Shown one piece after another: positions 19,093-24,530 of a stretch of DNA of 35,147 nucleotides. The notes below the pieces were generated by a model. That model made no database searches. It was given only the letters and a program-made list of their open reading frames with translations, and had not been told where the DNA came from. A program made the translations under genes and the position numbers. The DNA comes from Oscillatoriales cyanobacterium PMM_0008 (GTDB lineage Bacteria; Cyanobacteriota; Cyanobacteriia; Cyanobacteriales; Aerosakkonemataceae), in NCBI GenBank assembly GCA_949128025.1, contig CASBRD010000205.1:1-35147 (forward strand), read 5' to 3'. Numbering within the stretch: position 1 is the first letter of the stretch; each line of letters starts with the position of its first letter.

Positions 19093-19223
19093 CTACATAA
19101 TCTTGTGGCGGGAACGGAATAAGTGATTTACCATTGATCTGTATCGCTAACTTAGGCGCAGGTTTCAAAGGTTGCTTCCACCAAGCGCCAGCTTTCCACA
19201 TCCAACTTAAAGAATACACCGCC

Positions 19224-19874
19224 GTGCGACCAGATTTACAAGGTTTAGAGATTACGAAGGGGGAACTGAAACACTTGAGTGGTGTGAGTATTGATGCTGT
19301 CGTTAGACCTCCCACACCGCGAAAGTTTTTATCAGAAGTTTTTAACACCCTTTTGCTAATCGGACTAATTTCTGTCAGTAATTTTCTCTTGATTTTAGCT
19401 TTCCCGGATCATCGTCTGGCTTTAATTGCAGCCCATGCAGTTGTCGCCGCCGTATTAATCATTCAGGATGCCATCAAAATATTCTTTAGCTTAAATCACC
19501 GTCATTTTATCAATCTTATCGATGACGTTCACCGCTTTAATATCACAATTAAAGGTATAGATATTAACGATCAAATAGAAGCAGCAGGCAATCCCAGAGT
19601 TGGTTTAAAAGACAGAGAGCGAGTAATTCAAGCCCTGAAACTGACCCGCGAAGATATCATCCGCGCACTGAAGACCGAAAAAGTTCTCAGGGAAAACGAG
19701 CGGTTTATCAAAGTAAATCCAGACTTATTTGCCAATAACTTGACAGCTTTAGCAGCATTGCAAGTAAACGAACAGGCAAGTGAGTACGGACGCATTTTAA
19801 ACGAAGCATTTCAGATCGGTTTGAGCATCCAAGATGAGATGAAACAATTGAAAAGTCGGCATTTAAATGAGTAA
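19224..19874 (+). CDS. Conserved hypothetical membrane protein, tandem paralogue 1
   Basis: From the GTG at 19224 the product (about 216 residues) starts (V)RPDLQGLEITKGELKHLSGV, which aligns directly with the start of the following gene (GTG-RSDIQGLEITKGELRHLSGV). That alignment is why I reject the longer frame from 19134. Two hydrophobic segments follow (LLLIGLISVSNFLLILAF and LIAAHAVVAAVLIIQDA), then a charged cytosolic-type region with LIDDVHRFN, LTREDIIRAL and LRENERFI. The family is unknown to me. The C-terminal half is helical and may form a coiled coil. The two genes are 16 bases apart and probably co-transcribed. Confidence 0.75.
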   Translation: MRPDLQGLEITKGELKHLSGVSIDAVVRPPTPRKFLSEVFNTLLLIGLISVSNFLLILAFPDHRLALIAAHAVVAAVLIIQDAIKIFFSLNHRHFINLIDDVHRFNITIKGIDINDQIEAAGNPRVGLKDRERVIQALKLTREDIIRALKTEKVLRENERFIKVNPDLFANNLTALAALQVNEQASEYGRILNEAFQIGLSIQDEMKQLKSRHLNE

Positions 19875-19890
19875 AAGGGATTGACATTCT

Positions 19891-20562
19891 GTGCGATCGG
19901 ATATACAAGGATTAGAGATTACTAAGGGAGAATTGAGACACTTAAGCGGTGTCGATCCAGATGATGTGTTCAGAGCCTCTATGCTGCGAGAGTCGAGCAA
20001 GCAATTGACTTTTTTATTTAACGAACTATTGATTGCTCTTGCTCTCACTCCCATCATCGTCGGGGCTCTTTATACCTTTATAATTAGACCGATACGCGGG
20101 GCATCGATCAATTGGGCTATTTTATTACTAATAATAGTGCCAATTTCGGTAATCGCTGGCAGATGGTTCTGGCTGAGAAGCAATAGTCCGAAATTACTTG
20201 TCAATTTGCTGGATGATGTAGATAGGTATCATGCTGTACTCCAAGCTATAGATATTAGCGATCGCTTAGAAACAGCCGGTTCCTCTGGCGGAGTTTTAAC
20301 CGATCGGACCCAAGTAATTGCAGCACTTCAGCTAACGCGAGAAGATTTAATTCGCGCTTTGATGAGCGAGAGGATTTTGCGAGAAAATAAAAACTTGATT
20401 GCTGCGAATCCAGAACTGTTCACCAATAACTTGAGAGCTTTAGAAGCGATGCAAGTCAACACTCAAGCTGGTGAATACGGACGACTTCTGAATGAAGCAT
20501 TGCAGATTGGCCTCAGCGTACAAGAAGAGATGCGAAAATTGCAACATCAGCGATCGCGTTAA
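19891..20562 (+). CDS. Conserved hypothetical membrane protein, tandem paralogue 2
   Basis: This 223-residue protein starts at a GTG and parallels the preceding gene end to end: EITKGELRHLSGV, two hydrophobic segments (LLIALALTPIIVGALYTFII and WAILLLIIVPISVIAGRWFW), LLDDVDRYHAVLQAIDISDRLE, LTREDLIRAL and GEYGRLLNEALQIGLSVQEEM. The membrane segments diverge most while the soluble helical part is conserved, suggesting selection on the cytosolic domain. The stop is directly followed by the sugar-kinase start with a 2-base gap, so all three genes may form one operon. The function is unknown. Confidence 0.8.
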   Translation: MRSDIQGLEITKGELRHLSGVDPDDVFRASMLRESSKQLTFLFNELLIALALTPIIVGALYTFIIRPIRGASINWAILLLIIVPISVIAGRWFWLRSNSPKLLVNLLDDVDRYHAVLQAIDISDRLETAGSSGGVLTDRTQVIAALQLTREDLIRALMSERILRENKNLIAANPELFTNNLRALEAMQVNTQAGEYGRLLNEALQIGLSVQEEMRKLQHQRSR

Positions 20563-20564
20563 AA

Positions 20565-22019
20565 ATGGCAACCAAACCCAAAATTATTGTTCTAGATGAT
20601 GACCCCACTGGTTCTCAAACCGTCCACAGCTGCCTGCTGCTGACCCGTTGGGATGTCGAGACATTGCGACTGGGGTTGAATGACGAGTCGCCCATTTTCT
20701 TTGTGCTGACGAATACCAGGGCGCTTACGCCAGAGGAAGCAGCCGATCGCACTCGCGAAGTCTGCCACAACCTCAAACTAGCACTAGAAGCGGACACCCC
20801 TCCCCGCAACGGAGAGGGGAGTCAGACTCCCCTCTCTAACCCCCCCCCGTTGACGGGGGGGCAGGGGGGGGTTCTAATTGTCAGTCGTTCCGACTCAACG
20901 CTGCGGGGACATTACCCAGTCGAAACCGATGTCATTGCCGAAGAACTCGGCCCCTTTGACGCCCATTTCCTAGTTCCAGCCTTCTTCGAGGGAGGGCGAT
21001 TCACCCGCGAGTCCGTGCATTACCTCATCGTCAACGGTGTACCAACTCCAGTACACGAAACCGAGTTTGCCCGCGATTCCGTCTTTGGCTACCACCACAG
21101 CTACTTACCCAAGTATGTAGAGGAAAAAACCAAAGGGCGCATTCCATCTGAAACAGTGGAGCAATTTTTGCTGGCAGATATTCGCGCCGGAAGTCTGGAA
21201 AGACTGATGAACCTCACGGGTAATCAATGTTGCGTTGTCGATGGAGAAACCCAAGCTGACTTAAACCGCTTTGCAGCAGATATCCTCACCGCCGCAAGTC
21301 TTGGCAAACGCTTCCTGTTTCGCAGCGCTGCCAGCATCTTAACCGCTTTGGCTGCCCTACCCCCGCAACCGATCGGCCCTGAAGATATGGCGCAGTACGT
21401 GCGGGGAGGCAAACCCGGTGCCGTAATTGTGGGTTCCCATGTTAAAAAGACTACCGAGCAACTGGAAAGTCTTTTACAAGAGGCGGGAATAGTTGCGATC
21501 GAAATTGATGTTACTCGCCTACTGGATGAATCCGTAGGGGCGGGTTTAGCAGATCCCCCTGATCGAGGACAGACAACCATTCAGCAAAACCCGCCCCTAC
21601 GTGCCGCTTTGTTGGCAGAAACGCTCAAAACTGTACGTGATGCTCATGCTGGCGGTAAGACACCAGTAGTTTATACCAGCCGTCGGGAACTCACTTTTAA
21701 AGATACCGAAACACGGTTGCAATTTGGTGTGACTGTTTCAGCTTTGTTGATGGATATCGTGCGCGGATTGCCCGACGATATTGGATTTCTGATTAGTAAA
21801 GGAGGGATTACCTCAAACGATGTATTGAGTACAGGTTTAGCCTTGACTTCGGCGCGACTGCTGGGGCAGATTTTGCCTGGTTGTTCGATCGTGCGAACTC
21901 CAACGGATCATCCGCAATTTCCTAATTTGCCAGTGGTGCTGTTTCCAGGAAATGTTGGCGATGCAGATGCTTTGGCAACGACTTATCGACGGTTGTGCAA
22001 AAGTACAGCGATAAGGTGA
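20565..22019 (+). CDS. Four-carbon acid sugar kinase family protein (OtnK/DUF1537)
   Basis: The 484-residue protein has the N-terminal KIIVLDDDPTGSQTV motif, VSRSDSTLRGHYP, VPAFFEGGRFT and the C-terminal nucleotide-binding-domain segments LISKGGITSNDV and GLALTSARLLGQILPG of the four-carbon acid sugar kinase family. Family members phosphorylate acids such as D-threonate, D-erythronate or D-ribonate. The substrate here is unknown and the usual OtnC/PdxA-like partner genes are not adjacent. Two segments are foreign to the family and are translated dispersed repeats: residues about 78-103 (TPPRNGEGSQTPLSNPPP...) and 323-346 (VGAGLADPPDRG...). Both keep the frame. Whether the enzyme stays active is open. 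Confidence 0.88.
   Translation: MATKPKIIVLDDDPTGSQTVHSCLLLTRWDVETLRLGLNDESPIFFVLTNTRALTPEEAADRTREVCHNLKLALEADTPPRNGEGSQTPLSNPPPLTGGQGGVLIVSRSDSTLRGHYPVETDVIAEELGPFDAHFLVPAFFEGGRFTRESVHYLIVNGVPTPVHETEFARDSVFGYHHSYLPKYVEEKTKGRIPSETVEQFLLADIRAGSLERLMNLTGNQCCVVDGETQADLNRFAADILTAASLGKRFLFRSAASILTALAALPPQPIGPEDMAQYVRGGKPGAVIVGSHVKKTTEQLESLLQEAGIVAIEIDVTRLLDESVGAGLADPPDRGQTTIQQNPPLRAALLAETLKTVRDAHAGGKTPVVYTSRRELTFKDTETRLQFGVTVSALLMDIVRGLPDDIGFLISKGGITSNDVLSTGLALTSARLLGQILPGCSIVRTPTDHPQFPNLPVVLFPGNVGDADALATTYRRLCKSTAIR
20797..20872. repeat. Dispersed G/C-run repeat inside the sugar-kinase gene
   Basis: AGAGGGGAGTC (20813-20823) and GACTCCCCTCT (20825-20835) are a perfect 11-bp inverted repeat. They are followed by a run of nine C, then CGTTGA-type sequence and runs of seven and eight G. 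The block is typical intergenic repeat DNA yet is translated in frame within the kinase, just before VSRSDSTLRG. Confidence 0.85.
21533..21601. repeat. GTAGGGGCGGGTTT-type inverted repeat inside the sugar-kinase gene
   Basis: CGTAGGGGCGGGTTT (21533-21547) is the exact reverse complement of 21587-21601. This arm sequence is familiar from intergenic repeats of filamentous cyanobacteria. Its 69 bases (23 codons) are in frame and encode a proline- and glycine-rich insert in the kinase. Confidence 0.88.
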
Positions 22020-22043: not shown

Positions 22044-22069
22044 GTAGGGTGCATTACAACGCACCCTAC
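22044..22069. repeat. GTAGGGTGC hairpin after the sugar kinase
   Basis: GTAGGGTGC (22044-22052) pairs with GCACCCTAC (22061-22069) across an 8-base loop. It lies 24 bases after the kinase stop. No T-run follows, so I read it as a dispersed GTAGGGTGC-type palindrome rather than a terminator. The rest of 22070-22274 shows no gene. The DUF262 promoter must be there. Confidence 0.8.
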
Positions 22070-22274
22070 GAGCGAGAGGGGAATAATGATGCTAGAATAG
22101 ATCGATATGAGCGATCGCACTCTATGTTCATGCTGGCGACACGCTCAAGCATTCGACCTCATCTACCTTGCTCTTGTCAGGTCAGTAGCTCCCTTCCCTA
22201 TATTTCTGTTCTGAGCTTAAGCCTGGAAACGCTAGAATCATTCACAACAGCCACGCTGAGAGAGGATGTAAACA

Positions 22275-23450
22275 ATGTCACTTGCACCAGTTGAAGAAAA
22301 AATGTGGGAGAAATCTCCCTCAAAAACTCGGATTAAAAAATCTGAGGATGAGATTAACAAGAAGTACGAATCACAAGAGAAGAGAATACTTACCGAAATC
22401 AACCGTGAAAAGCTTCCGAGTTTTGTCGAAGCGTTATCAAAAAATCCTAAGTACATGAATTTGCGCCCATTTTATCAGAGAAGGGCGCGTTGGGATAACA
22501 AGATGAAGTCACTACTGATCGAGTCGTTTCTAATTAACATTCCCGTTCCGTCTATTATTCTTTATGAGATTGATTATAACTCTTATGAAGTAATGGATGG
22601 TCAACAGAGAATCAGCGCTATTCAGGATTTTTATACAAATGAATTCGCGCTGACTGGACTTGAAATTTGGCCAGAACTAAATCAACTTAAATACGAGCAA
22701 CTTTCTGTGAAAATTCGGGCAGGTCTTGATCGTCGTTCTATATCATCTATAGTAATTCTTAGAGAATCAACCTCCGATCCGGAAGAAGCTTTATTTCTAA
22801 AACAGAAGACCTTCGAGCGTCTTAATACTGGTGGAGTGGATTTAAGTCCGCAAGAAGTCAGAAACTGCTTGTATTATGGAAAATTTGATTCCCTATTAAT
22901 AGAATTATCACGTCATCCCATATTTGCTAAAGCTTGGGGAATTCCTATCGACGATAACAGTCCAGAATTATCAATAAATACTCTTTATAAAAAGATGGAA
23001 GATGCAGAGTTAGTTCTCCGTTTTTTTGCTTTGCGAAATGTAGAGCATTTCCGTAATGGTATGGAGGGTTTTCTTGATCTTTACATGATGAAAAGCTTGG
23101 AATTTTATGAGCCAGACATTGAATTTTTCAAAGATATTTTTTTACAAACAATCAATCTGGCTCACCAAATTTATGAAAAAAATTTGTTCAAACCTTTTTC
23201 ACCCAAGTCTGGAACTTGGCAGAAAAAGTCTTATAAAGCTTACTATGATGCTGTTATGGTTGGGTTTAGCAGACATTTGCATGAAGCAGAAATATTGATT
23301 GCTCGTAAATCAAGAGTAATTGAAGAGACAAAGAAGCTCTTTGATAAGCAAGAATCGCGTCTTTTAACAGGTGAGGGTAGAACTAAGGCTGATATCCAGG
23401 CTCGAATTAGGATATTTGACGAAATGCTCTCGCAAGTTATTGGGGAGTAA
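22275..23450 (+). CDS. DUF262 (GmrS-like, ParB/Srx fold) protein
   Basis: The 391-residue protein has the DUF262 core: NLRPFYQRRARWDNKMKSLLIESFL, then NIPVPSIILYE, and SYEVMDGQQRISAIQDFY. The DGQQR block is the nucleotide-binding and catalytic hallmark of the family. RLNTGGVDLSPQEVRNCLY follows, also typical. DUF262 is the GmrS part of the type IV GmrSD restriction enzymes. Here the DUF1524 (GmrD, HNH nuclease) half is missing, and the next gene encodes a HEPN protein instead. A GAGAGGA-type ribosome site lies 9 bases before the ATG. The gene is AT-rich with no GCGATCGC. It probably senses nucleotides or modified DNA for its partner. Confidence 0.88.
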   Translation: MSLAPVEEKMWEKSPSKTRIKKSEDEINKKYESQEKRILTEINREKLPSFVEALSKNPKYMNLRPFYQRRARWDNKMKSLLIESFLINIPVPSIILYEIDYNSYEVMDGQQRISAIQDFYTNEFALTGLEIWPELNQLKYEQLSVKIRAGLDRRSISSIVILRESTSDPEEALFLKQKTFERLNTGGVDLSPQEVRNCLYYGKFDSLLIELSRHPIFAKAWGIPIDDNSPELSINTLYKKMEDAELVLRFFALRNVEHFRNGMEGFLDLYMMKSLEFYEPDIEFFKDIFLQTINLAHQIYEKNLFKPFSPKSGTWQKKSYKAYYDAVMVGFSRHLHEAEILIARKSRVIEETKKLFDKQESRLLTGEGRTKADIQARIRIFDEMLSQVIGE

Positions 23451-23456
23451 CTTGCA

Positions 23457-24530
23457 ATGTTTGATGAGCTTCTCAAGATAGTAAGTATCAATATTTCCAC
23501 TATACGCAAAATTATCCAGACTAACGATAGGCTGAGAGGAATTGTATTTGGAGATGAGACTGTAATACAACAGGAATTAGATGAAAATACGCAACTTACT
23601 AAACTAATAGAAGATATTCCTAGTAACCGGGAGTGGCGAGTTTACGATCACTGTGCTGTAGTTACAAGGTTGTATGCTATTTATGAGCGATTTGTTGAGG
23701 ATTTAATTGCAGAATGGCTTGAACTTTTACCCGGTATTGTTACAAAATATTCAGATTTGGAAGAAAGAATTAAAGATACACACCAGATAGGTGTGGGAAG
23801 ATTATTACTAGACCTTAAGAAAAAGAGATTTAAAGACCTGTCTCTTAATGAGGTGATTCAAGGTTTATTTAATGGAGTAACTGGTAAGAAAAAATACAAA
23901 TTAATCCCTGATACTTTTTTATTACACGAACAAAATTTACGCAGAGAAGTCCTAGAAAAATTATTTGCTGATGCTGGGATCTCGAACGCATGGGGTTGGG
24001 TGGATAAGCATAGAAAGGTTAAGCAATTTATAGAGGAGGTTCGAGGGAGTCAAAATACTGCGGAAGGAGAGCTAAATGAATTAATTACCTATCGAAATGA
24101 TGCAGCACACGGATCTATTGTAGATGATATTCTCGGTACTGAAAAACTGCTAGAATTGGGTGACTTTGTAGAGGCTTTGTGCCAAGCTCTAGCGGAGTTA
24201 GTAACTTTTCAAGTTATTTCACGGCAAACTGCAATAGGTAAAGCTGAGGAAATAGGTCAAATTACAGAGTGGTTTAAGAAGCATAAAGCAGGAGTAGGGA
24301 AAGTTAAGGAAATCACTTTGTCTGTGGGAAGAAAACTTTTTCTGGTTAACGAGGCATCCTCATACTGTCGGTTCGCTACGATTGAGAGTATTATGATTAA
24401 TGATATTTCTAAGAAACGGGTTGTAATTACCAGCGAACAGGAGGTGGGGTTAAAGTTTTTTGATATTGATGCGAAAAAAGGGTTGAGACTTTATATACAA
24501 AAAAAGGGTTATACACGAAAAAAGGGTTAA
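23457..24530 (+). CDS. HEPN-domain protein (MAE_28990/MAE_18760-like), candidate RNase toxin
   Basis: The 357-residue protein has a helical region with DHCAVVTRLYAIYERFVEDLI near residues 63-83. Further on, LITYRNDAAHGS carries the HEPN R-x4-H motif at Arg213-His218, the usual RNase active-site signature. The N-terminal pattern and length fit the MAE_28990/MAE_18760 group of cyanobacterial HEPN proteins. The start is 6 bases after the DUF262 stop, with GGGGAG overlapping that stop, so the two are coupled. Paired with DUF262, it may be an abortive-infection or toxin-like effector regulated by its partner. Its last 20 residues derive from an A-rich repetitive stretch ending in RKKG. RNase activity is inferred from the motif. 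Confidence 0.82.
   Translation: MFDELLKIVSINISTIRKIIQTNDRLRGIVFGDETVIQQELDENTQLTKLIEDIPSNREWRVYDHCAVVTRLYAIYERFVEDLIAEWLELLPGIVTKYSDLEERIKDTHQIGVGRLLLDLKKKRFKDLSLNEVIQGLFNGVTGKKKYKLIPDTFLLHEQNLRREVLEKLFADAGISNAWGWVDKHRKVKQFIEEVRGSQNTAEGELNELITYRNDAAHGSIVDDILGTEKLLELGDFVEALCQALAELVTFQVISRQTAIGKAEEIGQITEWFKKHKAGVGKVKEITLSVGRKLFLVNEASSYCRFATIESIMINDISKKRVVITSEQEVGLKFFDIDAKKGLRLYIQKKGYTRKKG

Follow-up and report, generated by a model that had tools for sequence, protein, structure and literature searches.

What is an inverted repeat doing inside the reading frame of a cyanobacterial kinase gene, and how might it have come to be there? The question arises in a stretch of 35,147 nucleotides from Oscillatoriales cyanobacterium PMM_0008 (this whole stretch of DNA is what we call the window), in which a 67-bp element lies within a single open frame of 484 codons. 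We consider it very probable that this segment belongs to a dispersed palindromic element, small and non-coding, that is spreading in a cyanobacterial family, and that the copy seen here sits in frame in a dispensable loop of the kinase. The features on which the argument turns are as follows.

20565 to 22019, forward strand: DUF1537-family acid-sugar kinase-like gene, 484 amino acids, which holds both captured repeats (Pfam, structure search)
20793 to 20873, forward strand: first captured repeat, of the other (CCCCTCCCC / GGGGGG) kind, residues 77-103 (coding DNA of genomes G000, G001 and G002)
21534 to 21600, forward strand: 67-bp dispersed inverted-repeat element, captured in frame (family copies in the same genome; empty site in congener G002)
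21533 to 21547, forward strand: left 15-nt arm as initially annotated, CGTAGGGGCGGGTTT; the family arm is 21534-21547
21548 to 21586, forward strand: 39-nt interior, moderately conserved by column among 33 copies of 67 bp
21587 to 21601, forward strand: right 15-nt arm as initially annotated, AAACCCGCCCCTACG; the family arm is 21587-21600

The host gene and its surroundings

The features by which a DUF1537 acid-sugar kinase is recognised are present in the protein: both Pfam domains (SBD_N, 195 bits; NBD_C, 131.7 bits) and the DUF1537 fold, a structure search with the kinase model having returned 8 PDB chains at E ≤ 0.001, including the DUF1537 structures 5dmh, 4xgj and 1yzy, even though phmmer of the protein against PDB sequences gave no match. 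We describe the product of 20565-22019 as a predicted DUF1537-type acid-sugar kinase; its match to the NCBIfam D-threonate kinase model is far below the cut-off (60 bits versus 450 bits), too low to assign a substrate. The DUF1537 family includes four-carbon acid-sugar kinases.

As for the neighbourhood, the window at 19134-20562 contains two adjoining ORFs, paralogues of each other with 74% identical DNA across 145 nt, neither of which has a Pfam match. Downstream of the kinase, at 22275-24530, Pfam recognises a GmrSD-type (DUF262) gene that only 6 bp separate from a gene with a HEPN domain; on this basis the pair resembles defence modules. Another palindrome, GTAGGGTGCATTACAACGCACCCTAC (22044-22069), starts 24 bp past the kinase stop codon, folds at -15.9 kcal/mol and has the same GTAGGG/CCCTAC ends as the 67-bp element.

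Boundaries of the element

The element is laid out as GTAGGGGCGGGTTT-N39-AAACCCGCCCCTAC and is translated as VGAGLADPPDRGQTTIQQNPPL plus one base, which corresponds to residues 324-345 of the kinase. It had initially been annotated as a 69-base inverted repeat with perfect 15-bp arms. These arms (21533-21547 and 21587-21601) do pair exactly, and they stretch to 21 nt at 90%; the figure of 15 nt counts one flanking base per side, the arm that is common to the family being 14 nt. The outer C and G of the 15-nt arms vary between family copies, so that the repeat unit is 67 bp.

A chance origin of the hairpin is excluded because the arm 14-mer GTAGGGGCGGGTTT is found twice in the window (at most one mismatch) against an expectation of 0.00, a count that 0 of 100 shuffles reached, and because the segment 21525-21610, folded as RNA, attains -35.2 kcal/mol (z = -4.78), a stability equalled in 0 of 200 shuffles. 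We found no gathering-level match to an Rfam RNA in the window, in which the one sub-threshold match lies elsewhere, at 22138-22199. Nor did the 69 bases match anything at E 0.01 in plasmid and phage collections, from which records near the source genome may be absent; a plasmid or phage origin of the element thus finds no support there.

Filled and empty sites

The initial annotation had suggested a comparison with closely related strains. The segment is present in the source genome (G000) and in its congener G001, the kinase gene of which is 96% identical and holds the same copy of the 67-bp element; it is absent from congener G002, the kinase of which is 96% identical to that of the source over residues 103-483 and 99% over residues 1-77. 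The empty site of G002 reads TCT GAA GCT CAA CGT, and the carriers read TCC or TCT, then GTA...CTA CGT. Between TCC and CGT there are 66 nt in the carrier versus 9 nt in G002, i.e., a 67-bp element has replaced about 10 bp, and the net gain relative to G002 is 57 nt, or 19 codons. This codon comparison rules out the unit originally proposed (69 bases inserted as exactly 23 codons), and the 69-base span itself neither starts nor stops at a codon boundary: its first position, 21533, ends a TCC codon, and its last, 21601, is the middle base of a CGT codon.

We inspected 30 homologous loci, drawn from 59 genomes with a match (the source genome included). The 67-bp element is present in G000 and G001 and missing from the remaining 28 loci, including those of G005 and G006; at this second site G004 and G008 have a different repeat, of CCCCCTT...AAGGGGG type, and G011 and G029 have slightly longer linkers. 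We also aligned homologues, namely 80 retained out of 212 relatives (all 80 cyanobacteria by title), 6 of the 80 loci being left out because the match range crossed a stop codon. Of the 75 sequences in the alignment, 73 have 18-20 residues at site 2; the source protein has 39, and Phormidium LEGE 05292 (the G008 record) has 52, its extra length stemming from that different repeat. The inspected loci and the 75-row alignment overlap in at least G002, G003, G008, G023, G035 and G051. Had the segment been universal in homologues, the idea of an insertion would have been undermined; among cyanobacterial homologues it is not, 73 of 75 having the short form. Judged from these sequences, the short form is ancestral and the 67-bp element a derived insertion, because the other 27 inspected loci (beyond G002) also lack it.

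The initial annotation further described this repeat as the second in the same gene, and here it was correct: 20793-20873 is a repeat of another type, and G002 lacks this one too, having 18 nt (GAG AAA ATT CAG GAT TTT) at that position, so that the net gain is 63 nt, or 21 codons. Both repeats are common to the same two species, G000 and G001; since they are of different kinds, they represent separate events. Neither insertion simply adds sequence: relative to G002 some native bases are gone at each site, and the explanation must therefore also include either a replacement or a deletion that came later. Both sites are repeat-prone in the sequences compared: five tandem units of a CCCCCAACCCCCC-type repeat occupy site 1 of G003, and site 2 has received the different repeat of G004 and G008 described above.

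A dispersed family of repeats

The source genome contains 34 exact-ended copies of the element (a reversed-pattern control gave 0) and 137 exact single arms. Exact-ended copies were found in 18 of 60 genomes, the source included: 17 in G001 and 20 in G002; among the seven other members of the taxonomic family, six have 2 to 18 each and G006 has none; the 50 genomes outside it have 0 to 3 apiece. A typical member is mostly 66-67 bp with GTAG...CTAC ends. Among the 45 copies in the fetched loci of the source genome, a few of which lie at contig ends, the commonest length is 67 bp (33 copies), followed by 66 bp (10) and 64 bp (2); their arms are almost invariant and their interior is moderately conserved.

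Three of these 45 copies fall within ORFs of at least 300 amino acids, which marks a depletion of the family from genes; a fourth (L025) lies upstream of a probable start. Over both strands of the 45 copies, the frame that begins with GTA is open in 57 of 90 cases and the AGG frame in 47 of 90; the TAG frame is open in 0 of 90. The GTA frame is the one used by the kinase copy and by all the in-frame family copies that we found in five other proteins: L018 and L021 (G000), L074 (G007), and L078 and L086 (G042). We take L018 to be RecJ-like, L021 TPR-CHAT-like, L074 M1 aminopeptidase-like, L078 GltB-like and L086 DUF4157-like. Element-free relatives were seen for the L018, L074 and L078 genes, and the L021 copy is filled in all three congeners, with no empty site among them. 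The element thus occurs in frame in ORFs of unrelated proteins that have repeat-free homologues.

Some of these loci have features of their own. In the L018 gene (L018:1501-1567, G000:C391) the element is nested in an in-frame repeat of CAAAACT type, such that its exact junction cannot be set; the G002 counterpart has a shorter linker and no element. G042, a relative from the same taxonomic order, has a 62-bp variant in two proteins (L086 and L078), where it is translated as VGAGSP...KPAPT; because this variant is shorter, its second arm is read in another frame than in the 67-bp copies. At L091:1090-2085 (G000:C346), a small gene pair lies between two intact copies, and its second gene matches ParE_toxin.

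A constrained gene with two free loops

The initial annotation had also proposed that the insert be mapped on a predicted structure. An AlphaFold2 model of the kinase built with 74 homologues has a mean pLDDT of 80.6. Internally it drops below 50 in just two segments, residues 79-100 and 325-342, both of which lie within the inserts (residues 77-103 and 324-345). The first of them links helix 56-77 to strand 103-108, and the second links helix 316-325 to helix 345-362. These low values fit flexible loops, and would likewise be produced by a shortage of homologues that carry the inserts, so they are no proof of disorder. Outside the inserts, the dN/dS ratio between the two carriers is 0.132 (16 nonsynonymous and 38 synonymous changes), as compared to 6 nonsynonymous and 0 synonymous changes within the inserts (Fisher p = 0.0015, on small numbers). 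Furthermore, 208 of 209 columns that are conserved in at least 95% of the other 74 homologues are kept in the source protein; the sole departure, F to V at residue 103, lies at the margin of the first repeat. Since the inserts and the rest of the gene differ in this manner, relaxation is confined to the loops: the gene outside them is constrained by purifying selection, and two loops are free. The choice originally offered, between tolerant loops and relaxed selection, can be divided accordingly: repeat capture in tolerant loops is supported by the pLDDT values and by the recurrence of repeats at both sites, and relaxed selection on the gene as a whole is rejected on the dN/dS of 0.13 and the 208 conserved columns.

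It is against this background that two accounts centred on the gene itself should be viewed. Were the repeats piling up in a decaying gene under relaxed selection, one might expect what is seen in their distribution (two repeats in one gene, both in G000 and G001, both missing from G002) and in a dN/dS to G002 that is somewhat higher for G000 (0.234) than for G001 (0.173); but the kinase frame is open in all three congeners, the low dN/dS applies to everything outside the inserts, and the one deviation at a conserved column borders the first repeat, so we regard decay as very unlikely. The insert could alternatively be a selected functional addition, either a regulatory loop or an mRNA hairpin that controls the kinase. 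The mRNA would contain a highly stable hairpin, and the insert is retained in two species, yet its 22 codons show 2 nonsynonymous and 0 synonymous changes between these carriers, the same element occurs in unrelated proteins and mostly outside long ORFs, and unrelated repeats are found at the same loop in other lineages; we hold this account to be very unlikely.

Flanks, junctions and candidate mobilisers

The flanks of family copies in the source genome and its relatives contain a direct repeat of at least 4 bp in only 1 of 84 distinct cases; repeats of 2 bp (13 versus 8.3 expected) and 3 bp (3 versus 1.4) are in slight excess. In G001, L223 reads CTAATAGCTAAA-GTCCACTA-AAGTGGACT, and L015 of the source genome reads CTAATAGCTAAA-element-AAGTGGACT, equivalent to an 8-bp replacement, in related repeat flanks at different places that are not strict orthologues. 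Among 11 filled locus pairs of the three congeners (9 sites), the orientation of the interior is kept in 10 and inverted in one. This one is L038:1501-1567 (G000:C260) versus L260:561 (G001:C8), where the interior is inverted in place, the arms are intact and the intergenic flanks are 97% identical. At L033:1501-1566 (G000:C63), the element lies inside a larger palindromic unit, TTACAGCGGCTTGC...GCAAGCCGCTGTA, the whole of which is missing at the G001 match.

What might move such an element? One tentative possibility is that it is REPIN-like, a dimer with outward-facing GTAG that a RAYT (IS200/IS605-like) transposase would move as single-stranded DNA. Both outer ends carry GTAG, the interior varies yet the length is tightly kept (67 or 66 bp in all but 2 of the 45 copies), long flank duplications are nearly absent, and GTAG repeats have been published from filamentous and unicellular cyanobacteria and from the inside of ORFs (PMC3733652, in its accessible portion). 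Moreover, Y1_Tnp matches number 6 in the source genome and 57 in the relatives (7 of 7 searched), and one of those in the source genome (C264:316-558) shares a contig with the copy in the CHAT-like gene, at a distance of roughly 1.8 kb. On the other hand, a REP needs an unpaired GTAG beside its own stem-loop, and here the RNA fold pairs GTAG with CTAC inside the long hairpin, while three typical arms, each folded alone, reach only 0 to -1.8 kcal/mol. The scan of Y1_Tnp loci took in 36 of them (114 kb), covering 30 of the 57 matches in relatives; at no locus does the element stand on either side of the gene at once, and two have a family copy on one side only (L303 and L307, 76 and 159 bp past the ORF). 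We find it doubtful that the element is instead a classical MITE, i.e., the deletion remnant of an insertion sequence with a DDE transposase and GTAGGGGCGGGTTT as its terminal inverted repeats. Short terminal inverted repeats, an even length, dispersed copies and the lack of any coding capacity of its own are all MITE-like; the larger palindromic unit that is missing as a unit at L033 and the slight excess of 2-bp and 3-bp flank repeats may point the same way; the near absence of duplications of 4 bp or more weighs somewhat against it. So does our reading, by eye, of three places at which inward-facing arms lie 0.5-3 kb apart, among 100 of the 137 arm positions listed: no transposase lies between them. 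The intervening genes encode a pentapeptide-repeat protein (C295) and the ParE-like pair (C346), both from a Pfam run, and at C260 what is presumably a nitrate-type ABC binding protein. In the loci examined, a transposase tied to the repeat family was not found.

Returning to our preferred reading, that a dispersed palindromic element was captured in a dispensable loop, we envisage that the copy arrived by an event that would leave no long target duplication. Among many insertions, the survivors would be those that combine a dispensable loop, a net length divisible by three and a stop-poor frame (one of two). In the kinase, the 22 encoded residues would lengthen the linker between two helices, and the predicted kinase core would be left working. 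Quite improbable, in our estimation, is the more specific proposal that the family spreads by replacing 8-10 bp of target, instead of adding itself together with a duplication, and has an interior that flips between the arms, via hairpin-primed template switching at replication forks.

Relation to known repeats

Our literature searches found no description of this repeat family, which is weak evidence of absence given that subscription journals are mostly uncovered by them. Small dispersed repeats (SDR) of cyanobacteria, reportedly described by Elhai and colleagues in 2008, are said to be very small and to occur in filamentous forms, traits that the present family shares.

One close parallel lies in another phylum. 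According to the accessible text of one survey, the Rickettsia RPEs (the CGTC-type RPE-4 and RPE-6, and RPE-1) keep the frame of ORFs whose products are unrelated and probably functional (PMC3733652). The element described here is likewise a small palindromic dispersed repeat that is found in frame in unrelated ORFs; it differs from CGTC-type RPEs in its GTAG end motif, in its sequence and in the phylum of its host, and also in that R. conorii is listed there among the genomes richest in intragenic copies, in contrast to 3 of 45 copies here. As far as the same text goes, Di Nocera et al. (2013; PMC3733652) describe GTAG and CGTC palindromic repeats inside ORFs, over half of them dimers or groups that encode 20-30 amino acids, with some ORFs holding two such repeats; among other arguments, they propose that an insert that falls in a flexible linker or loop may have no effect on fitness, an argument that the kinase case matches closely. 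The element shares outward GTAG termini and an encoded length of 20-30 amino acids with their intragenic GTAG REP dimers, but it is unlike GTAG REPs proper, each unit of which has an unpaired GTAG and a stem-loop, in that its arms do not fold alone. Because the REP definition fails at the level of the arm, we class the element with RPE-like or MITE-like in-frame inserts and keep it apart from the GTAG REPs. REPINs are inverted pairs that are reported for Nostoc punctiforme; by definition they have REP arms, and they are linked to RAYTs, in the part of that account available (PMC3116915), and neither feature is established for the 67-bp element.

In-frame capture of palindromic repeats is therefore already known, from the Rickettsia RPEs and from intragenic GTAG/CGTC REPs (PMC3733652, in the text accessible), and the kinase is a clear new example. 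It is a well-resolved case of repeat DNA that has turned into protein sequence in a cyanobacterium, with carriers, a close empty site, outgroups and a structure model all at hand, and in other lineages unrelated repeats have entered the same two loops. With it, palindromic insertion within genes is extended to a cyanobacterial repeat family for which we found no description, and its pairs of filled and empty sites can be used for working out how the element moves. If the template-switching reading is true, a transposase-free process would be feeding in-frame loop insertions into cyanobacterial genes.
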